Shown here one piece after another: positions 7,032 through 53,580 of a stretch of 54,972 nucleotides of DNA. A program made the translations under genes and the position numbers. Source of the stretch: Candidatus Geothermincola primus (GTDB lineage Bacteria > Actinomycetota > Geothermincolia > Geothermincolales > Geothermincolaceae). Within the stretch, counting starts at the first letter, position 1. The number at the start of each line of letters is the position of its first letter. The stretch spans positions 1 to 54,972 of the forward strand of contig JACVIX010000003.1 of NCBI GenBank assembly GCA_015711725.1. The letters run 5' to 3'. The notes beneath the pieces were generated by a model that worked only from the letters and a program-made list of their open reading frames with translations, did no database searches and had not been told where the DNA came from.

Positions 7032-9305
7032 CTAAGGCCCGGGTGCATCCAGCCAGATAGGACTGGACCATGCTTGGTGCCCGTCTTCCTGGGAGACTCT
7101 CAGGTAATAGAAAGTACTGTCCACAATGTCGCGATCCACCAGACGATATTCTGTATCCCAGCTATCTCCCGGAAAATCCTCCTCTGGCTTGATTGTTCTA
7201 GCCATATAACCCCTGAGGTCGTATTTCACCAGCTCTATCTCTTTTATGGGGGCTGTGCCCGCCACCCTGATATAAACTTCCGGTTCTGTGGTTAAGGCCC
7301 CTTCCTCTCCCATGAACAAGTCATTTATCCGGAACCGAAGGAAGATGCGAGCCCCGGTGGTGGCATAAGTTCGCCTAGCGTATAGGGCTTCCCAGATGGA
7401 AGTGGGGGTGAGCGCTTCCGCCCATACACCCACCAGCCCGTGGGGATAGACTCTTATGGGATATTTCCTCTCATCCACCGCTTGGTCGTGACGGTCCCCG
7501 CCTCCGGTGAAGCCGAAGCGGTATCCTAGGGCGAGAGCCTCCTGAACATAGGATCCCCATCCAGGCGCTCCTCGGTCGTCCCGAAGGCAGGAAGGCCAGA
7601 AGACCCCTCCCTTGCCATGGGTAATGGGATAGGGCCCGTGAAAACGCTCGGAGCTTCCATGGGAAGAGTAGACCTCCACCAGTCGAAGTCGCTCCCCTCC
7701 AACTCCCCAGTGGAAGCTTTGGGGAATCTTAATTCTCAAGAACTTTCCCCAGTTGAAGGGTAGATAGAACACCTTTCTCCACGCGCTGTGGTGGGGCACC
7801 ACCATATAGTTTCTTTCCCCCAGCTGATGGATGAGTTTTTCCGGGGTATCGCTTTTGGCGTCGAGATATTCGGGAAAGATAGGGTCCTTCTCCGTGGGCG
7901 CGAAATAAATATTACGGTGCCCCGCCCCATGGTGAGACCACTCATAGCCCAACAGAGCCACGAATTCACCTTGACGGGTAAACTCCTCTGCCAGTTGGTG
8001 GTGCAGCTCTATCTCCTCCTGGGTTCGCCCCGTGGGTTCAAACTTTCCCAGTGTGTCATGGGTGGTGAGGGAGGCGAAGTCTAGACCCTCCTCATCGCGA
8101 GCGCGTTCGTAGACGTATCTGGGACTTGCAGTCCCGTCGCAAAGGGCCGAATGTATATGAATGTCCCCCCAAAAGAGGCGTTTTTCGTCCTGTTGGGCAA
8201 CTATGAAGGGATTGCTTCTCCCCGTAAAAGGTTTTGATGGATGGCGGCTCCTCGCTTGGAGGTAAACGATGGAAGAGCCGCTAGGGCTTACCTCCTCTCT
8301 ATTTACTGAGAAGAATTTGTGTCCTCCGTCCTCTAGCCTCAGTTCTATCTCCGCTATCTGGCTTTCACCCTTGGTCGGAAGCACCTCTAGTTTTCCGCAG
8401 AAGGCGCTGTCGGTCTCCCCATGAGGGTCTACCGCCCGTAGATGGATTTTCACCTTTGGCTCGGATTCAAGCGGCGGGAATACGTTAAGTTCCAGGGATT
8501 GCGCCTCTCCTCCGGTGACCTTTATGGTGGGAATCTCATTGATCATACGATATCTTCCCAATGCGCGCTCGTCCACCTCCAACATCATCTCGGTGAGAAT
8601 GGGATGGGCGGGAATGGTCCAGCCTTTACCCCCTTGGCGCCTATCCCCCAAGGTGAATATAATTTCCTCCCCTTCATCCAGCCTGCCGCCTCTAACCCTC
8701 ACTTTTATCTTGCTCTCCTCCAGCATGAGATTGGTGAGGTCCAGCAGGGGAAGGCGGGTACCCCGCCATCTTAGGAAATGGTAGCCAGCTAGGCGCAGAA
8801 AGAAACGGAGGGGAAGGGCGGGCTTTCTCTCCACCTCCAGCCGCAATGGGTTCCGCGATTTGGCTTCGCAGGCGAAATAGTTGGCCCGTTTTGGTTTGGT
8901 GTTCTGCAACGTTCCCCATCCGTGGGCGAGAACATAGTGAGCCCTTCTCTTGCCGCCGGGGAATTCTATAACGCGGCAGGGAGCCAGCTTTACGCCCCCA
9001 CCCTCGGAGATGCCTCCCTTGCCGGCTATGAAACGCAGGATTACCGTCTGCGGCTTTCCTCCCGCGATGACTTGTCCCGGCATGATCTCGGCCCTCCCCG
9101 GGGCCTGCTCGACGGTTGGTTCCGGCTTTTTTCCCGCGCGCATGGATTCCGGGAAAGCCAGAAAATCAAAGATACCATATATGATCCCTCCCGCCAAAAC
9201 CCCCAGAATGGAGAGAAAGGCGTAGATAGAGGTTTTCCAGATCCGGCGGACGGCCCTGGCTATCTTCCAAAGGTGCTTACCGTAAGCCTTCTTGCGCGGG
9301 AACAT
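7032..9305 (-). CDS. Membrane-anchored DUF3604 (PHP-like metallohydrolase) protein
   Basis: The product (about 757 residues) has one hydrophobic segment near residues 24-46 and then a long exterior beta-rich region. The DUF3604 core starts near residue 380 with GDIHIHSALCDG, followed by LTTHDT, a VPHHSAWR segment and TGGGDRHDQ; these His and Asp residues resemble the metal ligands of PHP-type phosphoesterases. The function of DUF3604 proteins is not established. I start at ATG 9305 behind AAGGAGATA; a GTG four codons earlier is directly abutted by AAGGAG and is less likely. It is flanked by the Moco operon and a zinc ABC operon on the same strand, but gaps of 117 and 302 bp suggest separate transcription. 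Confidence 0.88.
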   Translation of the reverse strand: MFPRKKAYGKHLWKIARAVRRIWKTSIYAFLSILGVLAGGIIYGIFDFLAFPESMRAGKKPEPTVEQAPGRAEIMPGQVIAGGKPQTVILRFIAGKGGISEGGGVKLAPCRVIEFPGGKRRAHYVLAHGWGTLQNTKPKRANYFACEAKSRNPLRLEVERKPALPLRFFLRLAGYHFLRWRGTRLPLLDLTNLMLEESKIKVRVRGGRLDEGEEIIFTLGDRRQGGKGWTIPAHPILTEMMLEVDERALGRYRMINEIPTIKVTGGEAQSLELNVFPPLESEPKVKIHLRAVDPHGETDSAFCGKLEVLPTKGESQIAEIELRLEDGGHKFFSVNREEVSPSGSSIVYLQARSRHPSKPFTGRSNPFIVAQQDEKRLFWGDIHIHSALCDGTASPRYVYERARDEEGLDFASLTTHDTLGKFEPTGRTQEEIELHHQLAEEFTRQGEFVALLGYEWSHHGAGHRNIYFAPTEKDPIFPEYLDAKSDTPEKLIHQLGERNYMVVPHHSAWRKVFYLPFNWGKFLRIKIPQSFHWGVGGERLRLVEVYSSHGSSERFHGPYPITHGKGGVFWPSCLRDDRGAPGWGSYVQEALALGYRFGFTGGGDRHDQAVDERKYPIRVYPHGLVGVWAEALTPTSIWEALYARRTYATTGARIFLRFRINDLFMGEEGALTTEPEVYIRVAGTAPIKEIELVKYDLRGYMARTIKPEEDFPGDSWDTEYRLVDRDIVDSTFYYLRVSQEDGHQAWSSPIWLDAPGP

Positions 9306-46981: not shown

Positions 46982-47680
46982 ATGGAGGAGTTCATTCCGG
47001 CGAAACACCTGGAGGCGCTGGAGGAGATAAGCAAGGCGATAACCTCGGAGCTTTACCTCGAGGATATTCTCAAACTCATCGTCATGCTGACCGCTGAGGT
47101 AATGAACTCCAATACTTGTTCCCTGATGCTCCTGGACGAAAAGACCAAAGAGTTGCGCATCCGGGCGACCCAGTCCATCAGCGAGGAATACTTGAGCAAG
47201 CCCCCTCCCAGGTTGGGGGAGGGGATAGCAGGGTTAGTGGCGAAGTATGGCAAGCCCATCACCTCCCTGGACGTGAGGATGGACCCCCGATATTTAAACA
47301 AGGAGGTAGCGCGCAAAGAGGGGCTCTGTTCCTTGCTATCCGTGCCCATGATGGTCAAAGGGAGGATCATCGGGGTGCTCAACTGTTACACTTCCCAGCC
47401 CCACGAGTTCACCGAGGGGGAGATAAGGCTACTCACAGCGGTGGCATGCCAAGCGGCCATCGCCATAGAGAATACCGAGTTGATGGTGCGCACCCGGATT
47501 ATACAGGAGGAGTTGGAGACCCGCAAACTGGTGGAGAGGGCTAAGGATATCCTCATGCGGGACAGGGGGCTTTCCGGTGAGGAGGCTTATCGACGCATAC
47601 AGCGCAAATCCATGGACACCCGCAAGAGCATGCGGGAGATCGCCGAGGCCATCATCCTCGCCGACTTGGGCTACGATTGA
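46982..47680 (+). CDS. GAF-ANTAR transcription antitermination regulator
   Basis: The 232-residue protein has a GAF domain (about residues 15-165; DILKLIVMLTAEVMNSNTCSLML, GLCSLLSVPMMVKGRIIGVLNCY) and a C-terminal ANTAR domain (about 172-228; LETRKLVERAKDILMRDRGLSGEEAYRRI, SMREIAEAIIL). ANTAR domains bind leader RNA with paired hexaloop hairpins and prevent termination; GAF domains usually sense small ligands. No kinase gene is beside it, so direct sensing is likely. A GGGAGGGAAG site precedes the ATG. The redox operon downstream has a matching hairpin and terminator in its leader. Confidence 0.92.
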   Translation: MEEFIPAKHLEALEEISKAITSELYLEDILKLIVMLTAEVMNSNTCSLMLLDEKTKELRIRATQSISEEYLSKPPPRLGEGIAGLVAKYGKPITSLDVRMDPRYLNKEVARKEGLCSLLSVPMMVKGRIIGVLNCYTSQPHEFTEGEIRLLTAVACQAAIAIENTELMVRTRIIQEELETRKLVERAKDILMRDRGLSGEEAYRRIQRKSMDTRKSMREIAEAIILADLGYD

Positions 47681-48889
47681 GATAATACGCGGGCGGAGTT
47701 GTTAATGAAAAAGTTAGCGGCGCCCTAAATACCTTGCGAAAACCCTGATCATAGATGAGATTAATTATTTACATAATGTAATATATTTGTTTTGCCCTCG
47801 CTTAATGCGAGAATTACCTAAATCACTCTCTGCCGCCCAATAAAGATATAGCCATATTCAATTGTCGAAATTCATGGAGACTAGTTGAAGGATAGCTAAT
47901 ACTTAACGAAGCGGGTAGGGAAGCGAACTCTTTATTTCCTATGAAGCATGTAATGGCTAAATTCAGGGAAAAAAGCTCTATCATATGATGAAACCGTAGA
48001 GAAAAATGGAATATCGACGGTATTGAAAATAAGCGGAAGAGATGGAGATTAGGCGAACAGGTTAGTCGAGCCATTCCTAAGAAGTTGAGGATAGGGGCGC
48101 GCAGAAAGAATGACAAAAGGAGGGATAACGAGATGACAGGGTGGCTGGATCGATTCCAAAGAAGGGAAAGAAAGAGATGCGTGGAAGCGCGCACAAATTC
48201 AGAGAAAGACAGCTGGCGTAGGCCAGGTTCTTGTGGCTCTGGCGGGCTCGAGCATGCTGATCGACTCATTTCTCCTCGCCGTACGGGATACCACCGCTTT
48301 CAAAAAAGTAGCCCGGATATGCTTACCACCTTGCTTTTCATATTGGGGTTGTTTAACTTTCTCGGCCTCCTGGCAGTTATTTCGATCATGATGAATTGGT
48401 CTCGCCGACTTAAGTTGTCTTGGAAATAGAAGATCATTCCCTACGATCTTGCCCGTATTTTTCTGGAAAATGTTAAAATCTATTATTCTGACGCACTTAT
48501 GTGGTTTCGCCCTCACTTATGGCTTCTAGACTTTGCTCATGCCTGGTATCAGTTGAATAAAAAGCGTTTCCAAGAAGCTCTTCGACTTCTTCAAAGAGAA
48601 TTATCCAGACGTTTCGCTAGGCTATAGCAAAGAGCTGGTCAGGCGAGACAGGAAAGGTCCTTTTTCTGTGAGATAAAATCCCCAGAGGCTAATAAAAGAT
48701 GAAAAAACCGCTATTAATTGACTCTGGCGAGGCCGGCACGCCAATTCTTAAATATTCCGATCCATCTTCTTCGCTTCGAATAAATGAGGTTTGATCTTGG
48801 TAAATATAGTCCTCCCTAATCATTTGGATTTATGTTTTATTAATATATTATTGAATTTTATGGAGAGCGCCTTAGAATAACTTCTATGC
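47681..48889. other. Long intergenic region between ANTAR gene and redox operon
   Basis: About 1.2 kb. It holds TTACATAATGTAA at 47769-47781, one possible small membrane-protein gene (48133-48429) and otherwise nothing recognisable. Confidence 0.5.
48133..48429 (+). CDS. Possible small single-helix membrane protein
   Basis: A 98-residue frame begins at an ATG with AAGGAGG nine bases ahead, a near-perfect site. The N-terminal 62 residues are basic and look unstructured; a strong hydrophobic helix follows (MLTTLLFILGLFNFLGLLAV) and the tail is basic, so the C-terminus would be inside. No family is recognised. The N-terminal composition resembles random GC-rich sequence, so this call is uncertain. 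Confidence 0.35.
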   Translation: MTGWLDRFQRRERKRCVEARTNSEKDSWRRPGSCGSGGLEHADRLISPRRTGYHRFQKSSPDMLTTLLFILGLFNFLGLLAVISIMMNWSRRLKLSWK

Positions 48890-48918
48890 TTGACACCGCA
48901 ATATGGTTCACTTAATAT
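48890..48918 (+). promoter_or_regulatory. Promoter of the NuoE/NuoF/HoxU/GltS-like operon
   Basis: TTGACA (48890-48895), a 17-bp spacer and TAATAT (48913-48918). Transcription should start near 48925, giving a leader of about 83 nt before the first ATG. Confidence 0.65.
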
Positions 48919-48934
48919 TTTTCAAGATAGTTAT

Positions 48935-48986
48935 GCACAATGATGTGCTAATTTGACGGAGTCGTCGTGAAGATGGCTCTTTTTTT
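48935..48986 (+). promoter_or_regulatory. Leader attenuator: hexaloop hairpin followed by intrinsic terminator
   Basis: Hairpin 1 is GCAC-AATGAT-GTGC (48935-48948), whose six-base loop has A at 1 and G at 4, the positions conserved in known ANTAR targets. The terminator is GAGTCGTC-GTGAA-GATGGCTC (48959-48979; two G-U pairs) followed by seven T (48980-48986). An alternative stem GACG/CGTC (955-958 with 963-966) would destroy the terminator's 5' arm. The operon's ribosome site follows at once. This is the layout of an antitermination-controlled leader; the match of the second hairpin to the ANTAR consensus is only partial. Confidence 0.6.
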
Positions 48987-49007
48987 GTTGAAGAGGGAGA
49001 TGGTTGT

Positions 49008-49487
49008 ATGGAAGAAGACGTAAGACCAGAAGTTCAGGTGATGGAGAGGTATGGATATGAGCGAAGTTATCTTATATCCATTCTTCACGAGGTGCAGAAA
49101 GAATATCAATACTTACCAGAGCAAGCGTTACGTAACGTTGCTGCGGGGATGGGCATCTCTCTGGTGGATATTTATGGTGTGGCTACTTTTTTCAAAGCAT
49201 TTTCTCTCAAACCCAAGGGCAAACATTCCATCGTGCTCTGTATGGGCACGGCTTGTCATGTGCGTAACTCCCGAGGGCTGTTGGAAGAAGCCCGCCGTTT
49301 CCTGGGTATCGAGCCTGGGGATACCACTGATGATCTGCTTTTCTCGTTGGATACGGTGAATTGCTTAGGAGCCTGTGCCTTGGGGCCCATAGCGGTAATT
49401 GATGGTGAATATCACGGTCAGATGACACCGGCGAAGATGGAAAGACTGCTGAAGAAGCTGGCAAAAGAAGAGGGTGTGAGAAAATGA
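49008..49487 (+). CDS. NuoE/HndA-like [2Fe-2S] thioredoxin-fold subunit
   Basis: The 159-residue protein is the 24-kDa-type subunit of NADH-oxidising complexes. Four cluster ligands are visible: Cys78 and Cys83 (CMGTACH) and Cys119 and Cys123 (NCLGACALGP). The N-terminal helical region (LISILHEVQKEYQYLP) is usual. It partners the NuoF-like gene, which overlaps its stop by four bases. It could feed electrons between NAD(P)H and the rest of the complex. Confidence 0.94.
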   Translation: MEEDVRPEVQVMERYGYERSYLISILHEVQKEYQYLPEQALRNVAAGMGISLVDIYGVATFFKAFSLKPKGKHSIVLCMGTACHVRNSRGLLEEARRFLGIEPGDTTDDLLFSLDTVNCLGACALGPIAVIDGEYHGQMTPAKMERLLKKLAKEEGVRK

Positions 49488-51346
49488 AAGGCTCATTAAG
49501 TAGCCCCAAAGATTTGAATGAATATAGAAAATCAATACAATCCACCAAAAAGAAGTTTGAAAAGGTTATATCGGTATGCGGAGGAACTGGGTGTCATGCG
49601 CAAAACTGCGTCCAGGTTCGCGAAGAGATAAGCCGCGAGTTAGATGAGAGATTGCTTTCGGATAAGGTGATGGTAAAATTCACGGGATGCCATGGTTTTT
49701 GCGAGATGGGTCCATTGGTGGTAATTCATCCTGCGGGCATCCTATATGTGAAGGTCAGCCCAAGTGACGCTCAGAGGATTATCGAATCAAGTGTGGTTGG
49801 CGATTCGGTAATTGACGAACTTCTTTATAAAGATGTTGCAACCGGAAAAAATTTTGAAAAAGAGCAAGATGTCCCCTTTTATTCAAAACAGAAACGCCTG
49901 CTTTTGGCCATGAATGGCATGATTGATCCTCAGAATATAGAGGATTACATAGCCCAAGAGGGTTATTCTGCGCTGGTGAAGGCGCTATTCGAAATGTCCC
50001 CGGAGGAGATTATTAAAGAAGTTGAGATCGCGGGCCTGCGTGGCCGTGGAGGAGCCGGATTTCCCACGGCAAACAAATGGAAAGCCTGCCGGAGAGCGAG
50101 GGCGCGAGACAATATTAAATATATCCTGTGCAACGCGGACGAAGGAGATCCTGGGGCCTATATGGATAGGTCCCTGCTTGAAGGCAACCCTCATGCGGTT
50201 ATCGAGGGGATGATTATTGGTGCTTATGCTATTGGGGCTACTGAGGGTTTTGTTTATGTGCGTCACGAGTATCCTCTCGCGGTAGAGAATTTATTGAAAG
50301 CCCTCGAACAAGCGCGTCAATTGGGCCTGCTCGGAGATAACATTTTAGGCTCCGGTTTCAGCTTCGATATCAAGGTGAGCGTGGGAGGGGGCGCCTTTGT
50401 CTGCGGAGAATCCACTGCTTTGATGGCCTCCATCGAGGGGCGCATCGGTGAGCCGCGGGTCAAGCACATCCACACCGCGGAAAAAGGTCTTTACAATCGG
50501 CCCACCAACCTAAATAACGTCGAAACCTGGGCCAATGTCCCTATCATCATCAGGGAGGGCGCTGAGGCTTATGCGCGCATCGGGACGGAGAAGAGCCGTG
50601 GCACCAAGATATTCTCTCTGGTGGGCAAGGTAAGGAACACAGGTTTGGTGGAAGTGCCTATGGGTATCACCTTGCGAGAGATAATCTTCGATATAGGTGG
50701 AGGCATGGCAAATGGAAAGGCTTTCAAAGCTGTTCAAACGGGAGGACCTTCAGGAGGATGCATACCTGAGAGCATGTTGGACACCCCAGTGGATTTCGAA
50801 CGCCTCACTGAGGTGGGATCCATGATGGGTTCAGGAGGAATGATCGTCATGGATGAATCCACCTGTATGGTGGATATCGCCCGCTATTTTGTGGATTTCC
50901 TCTGCGAGGAATCCTGCGGGAAATGCGTGCCTTGTCGTGAGGGCCTGAAGCAGATGCGTTTCATCCTTGACGATATCGTTTCCGGGAGAGCAACCGGCAA
51001 GCAACTGGAGCTGCTTAAAGAACTGGCAGAGGTGGTTAGGGATACTTCTTTGTGCGGGTTAGGCCAGACCGCGCCCAATCCCGTTCTCTCCACCATTAAA
51101 TACTTCGAGGATGAGTACCATGAACATATCGAGGAGAAGCGATGTCGTGCGGGAGTGTGTCGGGATCTAATCGAATACCAGATAGATGCGGATAAGTGCA
51201 CAGGCTGTCTTCGCTGCAAAGCGCAGTGTCCAGTAGGCGCGGTATTGGGAGAAAAGGAGAAACCGCATCATATAGACTTGTCAAAGTGCGAAAAGTGTGG
51301 CATCTGCTATGAAGTATGCGAGTTTGGCGCGGTCCTAAGGAAGTGA
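49484..51346 (+). CDS. NuoF/HndC-like NAD(P)H-binding flavo-iron-sulfur subunit
   Basis: The 620-residue protein has four parts. An N-terminal thioredoxin-like 2Fe-2S domain has Cys32, Cys37, Cys69 and Cys73. The FMN/NADH core carries GLRGRGGAGFPT, CNADEGDPGAY and GGGAFVCGESTALMASIEG. A 4Fe-4S site follows in ESCGKCVPCREG. Two ferredoxin-type 4Fe-4S clusters end the protein (CTGCLRCKAQC and CEKCGICYEVC). This is the arrangement of bifurcating-hydrogenase and NADP-hydrogenase flavin subunits. No hydrogenase or formate dehydrogenase catalytic subunit is in the operon; a glutamate-synthase-like protein takes that position. Confidence 0.95.
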   Translation: MKGSLSSPKDLNEYRKSIQSTKKKFEKVISVCGGTGCHAQNCVQVREEISRELDERLLSDKVMVKFTGCHGFCEMGPLVVIHPAGILYVKVSPSDAQRIIESSVVGDSVIDELLYKDVATGKNFEKEQDVPFYSKQKRLLLAMNGMIDPQNIEDYIAQEGYSALVKALFEMSPEEIIKEVEIAGLRGRGGAGFPTANKWKACRRARARDNIKYILCNADEGDPGAYMDRSLLEGNPHAVIEGMIIGAYAIGATEGFVYVRHEYPLAVENLLKALEQARQLGLLGDNILGSGFSFDIKVSVGGGAFVCGESTALMASIEGRIGEPRVKHIHTAEKGLYNRPTNLNNVETWANVPIIIREGAEAYARIGTEKSRGTKIFSLVGKVRNTGLVEVPMGITLREIIFDIGGGMANGKAFKAVQTGGPSGGCIPESMLDTPVDFERLTEVGSMMGSGGMIVMDESTCMVDIARYFVDFLCEESCGKCVPCREGLKQMRFILDDIVSGRATGKQLELLKELAEVVRDTSLCGLGQTAPNPVLSTIKYFEDEYHEHIEEKRCRAGVCRDLIEYQIDADKCTGCLRCKAQCPVGAVLGEKEKPHHIDLSKCEKCGICYEVCEFGAVLRK

Positions 51347-51351
51347 TAGAC

Positions 51352-51978
51352 ATGGTTAACCTGATAATCGACGGACAGCACGTACAGGCGGAAGAGGGAT
51401 GGACGATTTTAGAAACCGCGCGTTATTACGGTATTGACACCATCCCGACCTTATGTTACCGGGAGGGGTTGACTACCGATAGTTCCTGCCGACTTTGCGT
51501 GGTAGAGATAATATCGCGAGGCCGCTCCCGTCTTTCAGCTTCCTGCTCTTACCCGGTGCAGGAGGGTATCGAGGTGCGAACCAATTCCCGCAGGGTAAGG
51601 CAGGCGAGAAAGATAATAATTGAACTTCTATTGGCTTCCTGCCCCAACTCCAAGACCTTGCAGTGCCTCGCTTCCCAGTACGGGATAAAAGAACTGCGTT
51701 TCAAGGTTGAAGACCGAGGCTGTATCCTATGCGGCCTATGCGTACGCATGTGCAAGGAACAGATGCAGGCGGGTGCCATAGGTTTTTTCAACCGAGGAGT
51801 CGATCGAAGGGTGGCTATGCCCTTTCACGTTCGCTCGGATGTCTGCAGGGAATGCGGGGCTTGCCTATATATATGTCCTGTCTGTGAGCTGCAATGTCGC
51901 GGCCCAAGAGAGCCAGGCGACCTTTGTAACGGATGTTTTGAGGCGATAAGAATAGATCCCTTTCCCTCTAGGGATTGA
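51352..51978 (+). CDS. HoxU/NuoG N-terminal-like iron-sulfur subunit
   Basis: The product (about 208 residues) begins as a 2Fe-2S ferredoxin (VNLIIDGQHVQAEEGWTILE; cysteines in PTLCYREG, SSCRLC and SASCSY). The next segment, CPNSKTLQCLASQYG, has two Cys where HoxU/NuoG keep their His-Cys3 cluster, so that cluster may be changed or absent. Two 4Fe-4S sites follow (CILCGLCVRMC; CRECGACLYIC) with extra cysteines near the end. It is too short to carry the molybdopterin domain of NuoG. ATG 51352 lies six bases after the preceding stop, with AAGGAAG ahead. Confidence 0.9.
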   Translation: MVNLIIDGQHVQAEEGWTILETARYYGIDTIPTLCYREGLTTDSSCRLCVVEIISRGRSRLSASCSYPVQEGIEVRTNSRRVRQARKIIIELLLASCPNSKTLQCLASQYGIKELRFKVEDRGCILCGLCVRMCKEQMQAGAIGFFNRGVDRRVAMPFHVRSDVCRECGACLYICPVCELQCRGPREPGDLCNGCFEAIRIDPFPSRD

Positions 51979-51990
51979 AGAGAAGGAGGA

Positions 51991-53580
51991 ATGTTGACCA
52001 TGACCATGACCAAGTACAACCGTTCGGCGGCGACCCTCTCTAAAAACCGTACCCCTGATTCCGTCAGCCCTTTTAGCGGGATGTGCGTCACCTGCGTTGA
52101 AGGATGCGTAGGCATGTGCGAGGTGGGCAAATCCGCTTACCGAGGACCCGAGGTGATCTACCCGCAGCCGTTTGGAATCATGACCGCTGCCTCTGAGAAG
52201 GATTACCCCATTGACTTCTCCCATTTTAGCATCATGGGAAGCGCGGTGGGCGCCTATGGGGTTCCCGCGGACAGCGAGCACGCGGTCTTCACAGCGGTGG
52301 ACCTAGAGACCACCATCGGTGATAAACACCCTATCAAATTGAAATTGCCCATCGTCATCCCTGGCTTGGGCTCCACCGACGTGGCGAAGCGTAACTGGGA
52401 TGGCTTGGCGGTGGGAGCGGCTATATCGGGCGTGCTCCTCACCATTGGGGAGAATGTGTGTGGCATGGATGACGAAGCGATTGTGGAAAACGGACGCGTG
52501 GTGAAGTCACCGGATATGGAGTACAGAATCAAGACCTATCGCGAATGGCAATTGGATGGCTACGGTGATATCGTGGTGCAATTCAATGTGGAGGACACCA
52601 ACCTAGGGGTTCCCGAGTACGTGCTCACCAGGCTGGGAGTGGAGACGGTGGAGCTGAAGTGGGGTCAGGGAGCGAAAGATATCGGTGGTGAGGTTAAGTT
52701 GAAGTCCATCGAAAAGGCCCGTTCTATGAAGAAGAAAGGATATATCGTCCTGCCCGATCCAGATGATCCCGAAACCGAAGAGATATTCCGCGTCGGAGGC
52801 GTGAAGGAATTCGAAAGACATTCCCGGATCGGCATGGTTACCGAGGAAGGTTTCGCGGAGAGCGTGAAGAACCTGAGGGAAATGGGCGCCAAGCGCGTTT
52901 TTCTGAAGACCGGCGCCTATCGCCCGGTGGACCTTGCCCGCGCGGTCAAGTACGCTTCAGACAATCGCATCGACATGCTCACCGTGGATGGTGCGGGCGG
53001 GGGCACGGGGATGAGCCCATGGCGAATGATGAACGAGTGGGGAATACCCACCGTGGAGTTATGTTCGTTGACGTATCAATATGTGGATTACTTGGCTAAG
53101 CAAGGACGTTACGTTCCCAGTGTCGTCTTCGCGGGGGGGTTCACGATGGAAGATCAGATGTTTAAGGGTTTTGCCCTGGGCGCTCCCTATGTCAAGGCTA
53201 TCGGCATGGCGCGCTCCTCTCTCTGCGCCGCCATGGTGGGCAAGACCATCGGAAATCTGATTGAGAAAGACGACCTGCCTGTTTATATCGAACGTTACGG
53301 AAACACCGCCGAGGAGATATTCTACGCTGGCGTGCACTTACGCGATGCCTATGGTAAGGACTTTGAGAGATTACATCCCGGAGCCATCGGCGTTTACACT
53401 TACTACCAGCGCCTCGCTCATGGGTTGCGCCAGCTCATGTGCGGAGCGCGCAAATTCGCCCTTTCTTATATCACCAGGGACGATATCGCCGCCCTGACCA
53501 GGGAAGCGGCGTCAGTATCCGGTATCCCCTATGTCACCGAGCTGGATAAGGAGGCGGCCTGGGAGATTCTTAAGGGCTGA
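51991..53580 (+). CDS. FMN-binding glutamate synthase-family protein
   Basis: The 529-residue protein matches the FMN domain of glutamate synthase (GltB central part): KLKLPIVIPGLGSTD, LLTIGENVCGMDDE, VELKWGQGAKDIGGEVK, DMLTVDGAGGGTGMSPWRMM, FAGGFTMEDQMFKGFALGAPYVKAIGMARSS. The canonical 3Fe-4S cysteine motif (CHxxxCPVG) after this is missing; only one Cys is found there. Instead the N-terminus has C32-x2-C35-x3-C39-x3-C43, a probable Fe-S site. No glutaminase domain is encoded, so ammonia or another donor would be used if it makes glutamate. AGGAGG precedes the start; ATG 51991 is very close to it and ATG 52000 is an alternative. Confidence 0.88.
   Translation: MLTMTMTKYNRSAATLSKNRTPDSVSPFSGMCVTCVEGCVGMCEVGKSAYRGPEVIYPQPFGIMTAASEKDYPIDFSHFSIMGSAVGAYGVPADSEHAVFTAVDLETTIGDKHPIKLKLPIVIPGLGSTDVAKRNWDGLAVGAAISGVLLTIGENVCGMDDEAIVENGRVVKSPDMEYRIKTYREWQLDGYGDIVVQFNVEDTNLGVPEYVLTRLGVETVELKWGQGAKDIGGEVKLKSIEKARSMKKKGYIVLPDPDDPETEEIFRVGGVKEFERHSRIGMVTEEGFAESVKNLREMGAKRVFLKTGAYRPVDLARAVKYASDNRIDMLTVDGAGGGTGMSPWRMMNEWGIPTVELCSLTYQYVDYLAKQGRYVPSVVFAGGFTMEDQMFKGFALGAPYVKAIGMARSSLCAAMVGKTIGNLIEKDDLPVYIERYGNTAEEIFYAGVHLRDAYGKDFERLHPGAIGVYTYYQRLAHGLRQLMCGARKFALSYITRDDIAALTREAASVSGIPYVTELDKEAAWEILKG

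Follow-up and report, generated by a model that had tools for sequence, protein, structure and literature searches.

A putative ANTAR-type transcription attenuator before a flavo-iron-sulfur operon in Candidatus Geothermincola and its relatives

Transcription attenuation by ANTAR proteins acting on dual-hairpin leaders is already established (PMC3369931, PMC8934654). The EutV-eutP attenuator of Enterococcus faecalis comprises two hairpins with six-nucleotide loops and G at loop position 4 (G4), joined by a short linker, the second of which (P2) overlaps a terminator before the first gene. EutV, whose sensor is a phosphorylated REC domain, serves several attenuators and is thought to require hexaloops. 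Its crystal structure shows no specific contact to the A at loop position 1 (A1), which may serve merely against cross-loop pairing. Dual-hairpin ANTAR attenuators linked to glutamate synthase genes have been predicted in Desulfotomaculum (Ramesh 2012, PMC3369931), whereas the ANTAR RNAs of Actinobacteria have looser loops and few terminators, and many of them either overlap the ribosome-binding site (RBS) or fall within coding regions (Mehta and Ramesh 2021, PMC8164766).

We analyzed a 54,972-nucleotide stretch (the window) from Candidatus Geothermincola primus, a member of an uncultured class of Actinomycetota. Its leader shares the architecture of the eutP attenuator, but the P2 loop begins with G (G1), the target operon combines NuoEF/HoxU with an FMN enzyme, the sensor of the regulator is a GAF domain, and there is usually one attenuator per genome. 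Dual hairpins, a link to glutamate synthase and a nitrogen theme recall the Desulfotomaculum regulon; unlike the genes annotated as glutamate synthase there, the window operon pairs a Bfu-like module with a distantly GltS-like enzyme. As in the RNAs of Actinobacteria, the same phylum, loop positions 1 and 4 are looser than in Firmicutes, but essentially all leaders found here have a terminator.

Three things are new: the pairing of a GAF-ANTAR protein with an attenuator, supported in 21 genomes; a target that joins a Bfu-like module to an FMN enzyme; and a P2 loop with G at position 1. A first-pass annotation of the locus had suggested a new kind of ANTAR target; because glutamate synthase genes had been predicted as targets before (PMC3369931), the class is not entirely new, and the novelty of the target lies in the Bfu-like module with its FMN enzyme. 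From sequence comparisons, we consider it very probable that this leader is an ANTAR-type (EutV/NasR) transcription attenuator at which the GAF-ANTAR protein antiterminates the nuoE-nuoF-hoxU-gltS-like operon.

The regulator and the leader

The locus comprises the GAF-ANTAR gene, a gap of about 1.2 kb, a promoter, a leader of about 83 nt and four close or overlapping genes (Table 1), which bears out the earlier reading of a GAF-ANTAR gene followed by an operon. The gap (47681-48890) holds no convincing gene, is short in relatives and is perhaps remnant sequence.

Table 1. Features of the regulator gene, leader and operon in the window
Feature	Coordinates	Strand	Basis
GAF-ANTAR regulator gene, 232 aa	46982..47680	+	Pfam GAF/GAF_2/ANTAR
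sigma70-like promoter, TTGACA-17-TAATAT	48890..48918	+	sequence; equivalent promoter in 23/23 leaders
P1 hairpin, GCAC[AAUGAU]GUGC, 4 bp, hexaloop A1/G4	48935..48948	+	sequence; stem covariation, 20 leaders
P2 hairpin, GAC[GGAGUC]GUC, hexaloop G1/G4, putative antiterminator	48955..48966	+	sequence; GAC...G..GTC in 20/20 leaders
Intrinsic terminator, 9-bp stem (48958-48966/48972-48980) and T7 tract (48980-48986)	48958..48986	+	sequence, folding
Probable RBS, GAGGGAG	48993..48999	+	sequence reading; no overlap by P1/P2
nuoE-like (BfuC-like) 2Fe-2S subunit	49008..49487	+	PF01257, 165 bits
nuoF-like (BfuB/HydB-like) subunit, C-terminal 2x4Fe-4S	49484..51346	+	Pfam; nearest solved chains
hoxU-like (BfuA-like) 2Fe-2S/4Fe-4S subunit	51316..51978	+	Pfam Fer2_4, Fer4_7; NCBIfam HoxU / FeFe hydrogenase A6 N-terminus
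gltS-like FMN TIM-barrel enzyme, distant glutamate synthase relative	51991..53580	+	PF01645, 55 bits; AlphaFold model

The regulator fuses an N-terminal GAF sensor domain (72-79 bits) to an ANTAR domain (PF03861, 70 bits against a cut-off of 27.3), as ANTAR antiterminator proteins combine ANTAR with a sensor. It is the only protein with a PF03861 match encoded in its genome, and its orthologues in 20 other genomes of the class are 62-83% identical. Among the residues by which EutV contacts RNA (PMC8934654), the window protein retains R142, K143, K149, Y164, M172 and R175 and carries the changes K147R, E160G, R168Q, N173D and R177S. The main contacts R142, K149, M172 and R175 are kept in all 23 aligned orthologues; the changes E160G and R177S/P among orthologues count against the ANTAR reading. 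The nearest relatives of the GAF domain are those of PtsP and NifA. These domains are linked to glutamine/2-oxoglutarate sensing, which is why we suggest such a signal for the regulator.

P1 fits the A1/G4 pattern, as the first-pass annotation had recognized. A linker of 6 nt (between 4 and 10 nt in the set of leaders when P1 is taken as 5 bp) separates it from P2, whose stem either has 3 bp (plus UG) and encloses the hexaloop GGAGUC or extends to 4 bp around a tetraloop. The window leader thus has the tandem stems of at least 3 bp and the short linker of ANTAR-target RNAs, with A1 in the P1 loop and G1 in the P2 loop. The stem of P2 had been described as a competitor overlapping the 5′ arm of the terminator, with a loop devoid of the A/G pattern. 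The overlap and the absence of A1 hold, but G4 is present, and the stem is better read as a second ANTAR hairpin with G1. The T7-ended terminator was correctly called, and its last T lies 21 rather than 22 nt before the nuoE start codon (49008).

P2 and the terminator are mutually exclusive, because the 5′ arm of the terminator consists of the loop and the 3′ arm of P2, while P1 is compatible with both. In stepwise folding of the window leader, P1 formed first, then P1 and P2 together (-11.4 kcal/mol), and then P1 and the terminator (-19.5 kcal/mol) once the 3′ arm was included. When the ribosome-binding region was added, the minimum-energy fold kept the terminator and lost P1 to long-range pairing. 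The window leader folds better than its shuffled versions by 2.9 SD.

Conservation of the leader and its co-occurrence with the regulator

We aligned 20 leaders preceding nuoE or the gltS-like gene within the class. Conservation of G4 (20/20 P1 loops and 20/20 P2 loops), of the C-G closing pair of P1 and of the GAC 5′ of the P2 loop is partly a product of the candidate finder, which demanded all three; the GTC arm of P2, unlike GAC and G4, follows from pairing. Position 1 of the P1 loop is A in 14 of the 20 leaders, as in the window. In the P2 loop it is G in 16, again as in the window, A in three and T in one, and a G1-C6 pair could turn the hexaloop into a tetraloop in half of the leaders (10/20). 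Both features count against the ANTAR reading. P1 covaries on three of its five pairs, namely the outer ones (G-C/A-U, C-G/U-A and C-G/G-C), independently of the finder requirements. Over the whole structure, 19 double-changed cells were counted against 6.2 +/- 2.1 in shuffles, none of 500 of which reached 19. The three core pairs of P2 never vary in the aligned leaders, and they therefore show no covariation of their own.

Terminator stems overlapping P2 are predicted in nearly all 20 leaders, and the mutual exclusion typical of ANTAR-target RNAs appears both in these predicted folds and in the stepwise folding of the window leader. Of the conservation expected in relatives (both hairpins and the terminator, with A1/G4 loops), the P1 stem covaries and the terminator is near-universal, but A1 is not kept in both loops, P2 mostly having G1. 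In one leader (L048), the P2 used in the alignment does not fall in the terminator; the terminator arm instead contains a canonical GAC[AAAGGC]GUC. At another locus (L050, near 8754-8827), nuoE is preceded by a tandem of two dual-hairpin/terminator units.

When the window leader was left out of a covariance model, the model still gave this site its top score in the 3.17-Mb genome (28.5 bits, E 2.9e-4). The runner-up scored 19.0 bits, and this genome-wide search found no second convincing leader that would indicate a wider regulon. The model of the aligned leaders recovered two leaders outside the training set, in genomes G001 (E 1.2e-4) and G008 (E 5e-7). Its weak matches in other classes of the phylum (~20-28 bits) resembled GC-rich coding sequence, had no T-tract and were attributed to chance. 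In 23 of 23 leaders, P1 is preceded at 8-18 nt by a promoter equivalent to that of the window, although 10% of shuffles score equally.

One ANTAR gene is present in 21 of the 31 genomes of the class, and each of these 21 has exactly one leader (E<=1e-3), in every case preceding nuoE or the gltS-like gene. Nine of the ten genomes devoid of the ANTAR gene have no leader, the tenth (G008) being a decayed locus (Fisher p = 5e-7, a value that ignores shared ancestry). This comparison supports antitermination by the ANTAR protein, as the first-pass annotation had proposed. Relatives that keep operon genes without the leader had been named as evidence against it; the gltS-like gene does occur without a leader in G007, G023 and G027, the second of which retains the whole operon, but since these genomes also lack the ANTAR gene they do not refute the proposal. 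The converse, an ANTAR gene without the leader, was not seen in the 21 genomes. The ANTAR gene adjoins the operon, or gltS alone, in 20 of the 21 genomes; in G001, it and the gltS-like gene are on separate contigs. In the decayed locus of G008 (L180, G008:C11, 3845-5043), nuoE and the leader are intact, and nuoF is cut after residue 123 and abuts gltS and ANTAR fragments.

Several kinds of terminator-based leaders exist, and the window leader contains a 7-codon ORF, MHNDVLI. Nevertheless, an attenuator governed by leader-peptide translation, a T-box or a metabolite riboswitch is very improbable, given that the presence of the leader tracks the sole ANTAR gene of the genome. A leader peptide was rejected because no ATG-initiated ORF of the leader is conserved across relatives, and an Rfam riboswitch or T-box because the leader matches no Rfam family. 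Less probable still is that the ANTAR protein works on the window leader mainly at translation, as reported in mycobacteria, rather than at termination. Action at the RBS has been proposed for many actinobacterial ANTAR RNAs (PMC8164766), but here the RBS and the start codon are free of overlap by P1 or P2, and nearly all leaders retain the terminator that overlaps P2. The least credible alternative is a conventional intrinsic terminator belonging to the upstream gene, its hairpins resembling ANTAR targets by chance: terminator-like sites are common (12 in the region against 9.3 expected by chance), but the element sits between a conserved promoter and a nearby nuoE or gltS in every genome, the ANTAR gene is upstream in some genomes and convergent in many, and the dual-hairpin model ranks the window site first.

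The target operon

The four genes (49008-53580) probably encode, as judged from their domains, an NADH/ferredoxin-linked, Bfu-like flavo-iron-sulfur complex that feeds a glutamate-synthase-related FMN enzyme. As in Bfu (HydABC-type) enzymes (Schut 2022, PMC9304861), whose definition of the subunit set we followed, BfuC-, BfuB- and BfuA-like domain sets are encoded together (2Fe-2S_thioredx; Complex1_51K, NADH_4Fe-4S, SLBB and Fer4; Fer2_4 and Fer4). The NuoF-like protein is a full-length HydB/BfuB-like protein nearest to HydB and NfnB, and its best solved matches also include NiFe-hydrogenase subunit B. The hallmark residues A202 and M204 agree with the published numbering and are kept in the window protein; at the number of the published hallmark F182, the aligned chain has no F. 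Unlike in the surveyed Bfu enzymes, the partner here is a GltS-like FMN enzyme, and the text of the survey does not mention glutamate (PMC9304861).

The GltS-like label fails if taken to mean a glutamate synthase and holds for a distant FMN-barrel relative. The match to Glu_synthase (PF01645) is weak and partial (55 bits over 121 residues), the C-x5-C-x4-C 3Fe-4S motif found in the canonical homologue is missing from the window protein, and the window operon encodes neither of the glutamate synthase partners, amidotransferase and GXGXG. An AlphaFold model (pLDDT 83) resembles FMN 2-hydroxyacid oxidases and IMPDH, and a fold search with it returned generic FMN-barrel enzymes, with no glutamate synthase among the best 50. 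Canonical GATase-GltS-GXGXG-glnA genes are located on contig C23 of the same genome, with no leader detected before the synthase genes. Because of the weak match, the absent motif, the oxidase/IMPDH-like model and the canonical genes elsewhere, we describe the protein only as a glutamate-synthase relative. In place of the 3Fe-4S motif, it has an invariant N-terminal C-x2-C-x3-C-x3-C.

Relatives with the gltS-like gene include MAGs of Candidatus Geothermincola, Geohydrothermomicrobium and Solincola. In a sample of 80 loci from many phyla, archaea included, 70 have a hoxU-like gene adjoining the gltS-like one. The nuoE-nuoF-hoxU-gltS-like cluster (L084-L163), which would encode a Bfu-type enzyme, is found again in Aminicenantes, Zixibacteria, Methanoperedens, Dehalococcoidia and others, where the gltS-like proteins are ~63-69% identical.

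Link to nitrogen assimilation and proposed mechanism

A sister lineage within the phylum has 14 genomes with regulator orthologues (53-61% identical), mostly adjoining a split glutamate synthase of canonical type (GATase, GltS with the 3Fe-4S motif, and GXGXG). In 13 of these genomes, the amidotransferase gene is preceded by GGU[ANNGNN]GCC overlapping a terminator, and an automated search located a P1 in nine; these leaders have canonical A1/G4 loops. Canonical leaders also precede glnA-GATase in G032 and, in an unrelated MAG labelled Proteobacteria (L147), a gltS-like gene followed by glnA. In Hakubella (L149), glnA, a gltS-like gene and an ANTAR-type regulator fragment are consecutive. Since these deeper relatives sit with glutamate synthase, glnA or amtB genes, the regulator family belongs to ammonium assimilation, of which the window target would likewise be part. 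One locus (G256; L196, 7214-8760) comprises a GAF-GAF-ANTAR gene, a canonical dual-hairpin attenuator, a small sigma-like/helix-turn-helix ORF, amtB, a glnB-like (P-II-like) gene and glnA.

We propose that transcription begins about 9 nt before P1 and that P1 and then P2, as predicted by folding, can form as the transcript emerges. Without active regulator, the 3′ arm of the terminator would invade P2, and transcription would stop at the T7 tract ahead of nuoE. When its GAF domain receives a signal, presumably nitrogen/carbon status in the form of, e.g., glutamine or 2-oxoglutarate, the ANTAR dimer would bind the P1 and P2 loops and keep P2 closed, allowing readthrough into the operon. More tentatively, and on balance doubtfully, a nitrogen/carbon-reading GAF-ANTAR protein may use the G1/G4 dual-hairpin variant to induce a Bfu-type bifurcating complex in which a new FMN enzyme related to glutamate synthase is the third partner. 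If true, this would add a third-substrate class to the Bfu enzymes and widen the ANTAR RNA code.

With one ANTAR protein and one attenuator in each of 21 genomes, the system offers a clean pair for studying GAF-driven ANTAR antitermination. The G1 loops give a chance to ask whether loop position 1 must be A, and what the protein does with such loops is the point most accessible to experiment. The leader would also offer regulatory access to a four-gene flavo-iron-sulfur module that many unrelated bacteria and archaea share, and the relatives of its regulator point toward nitrogen assimilation.
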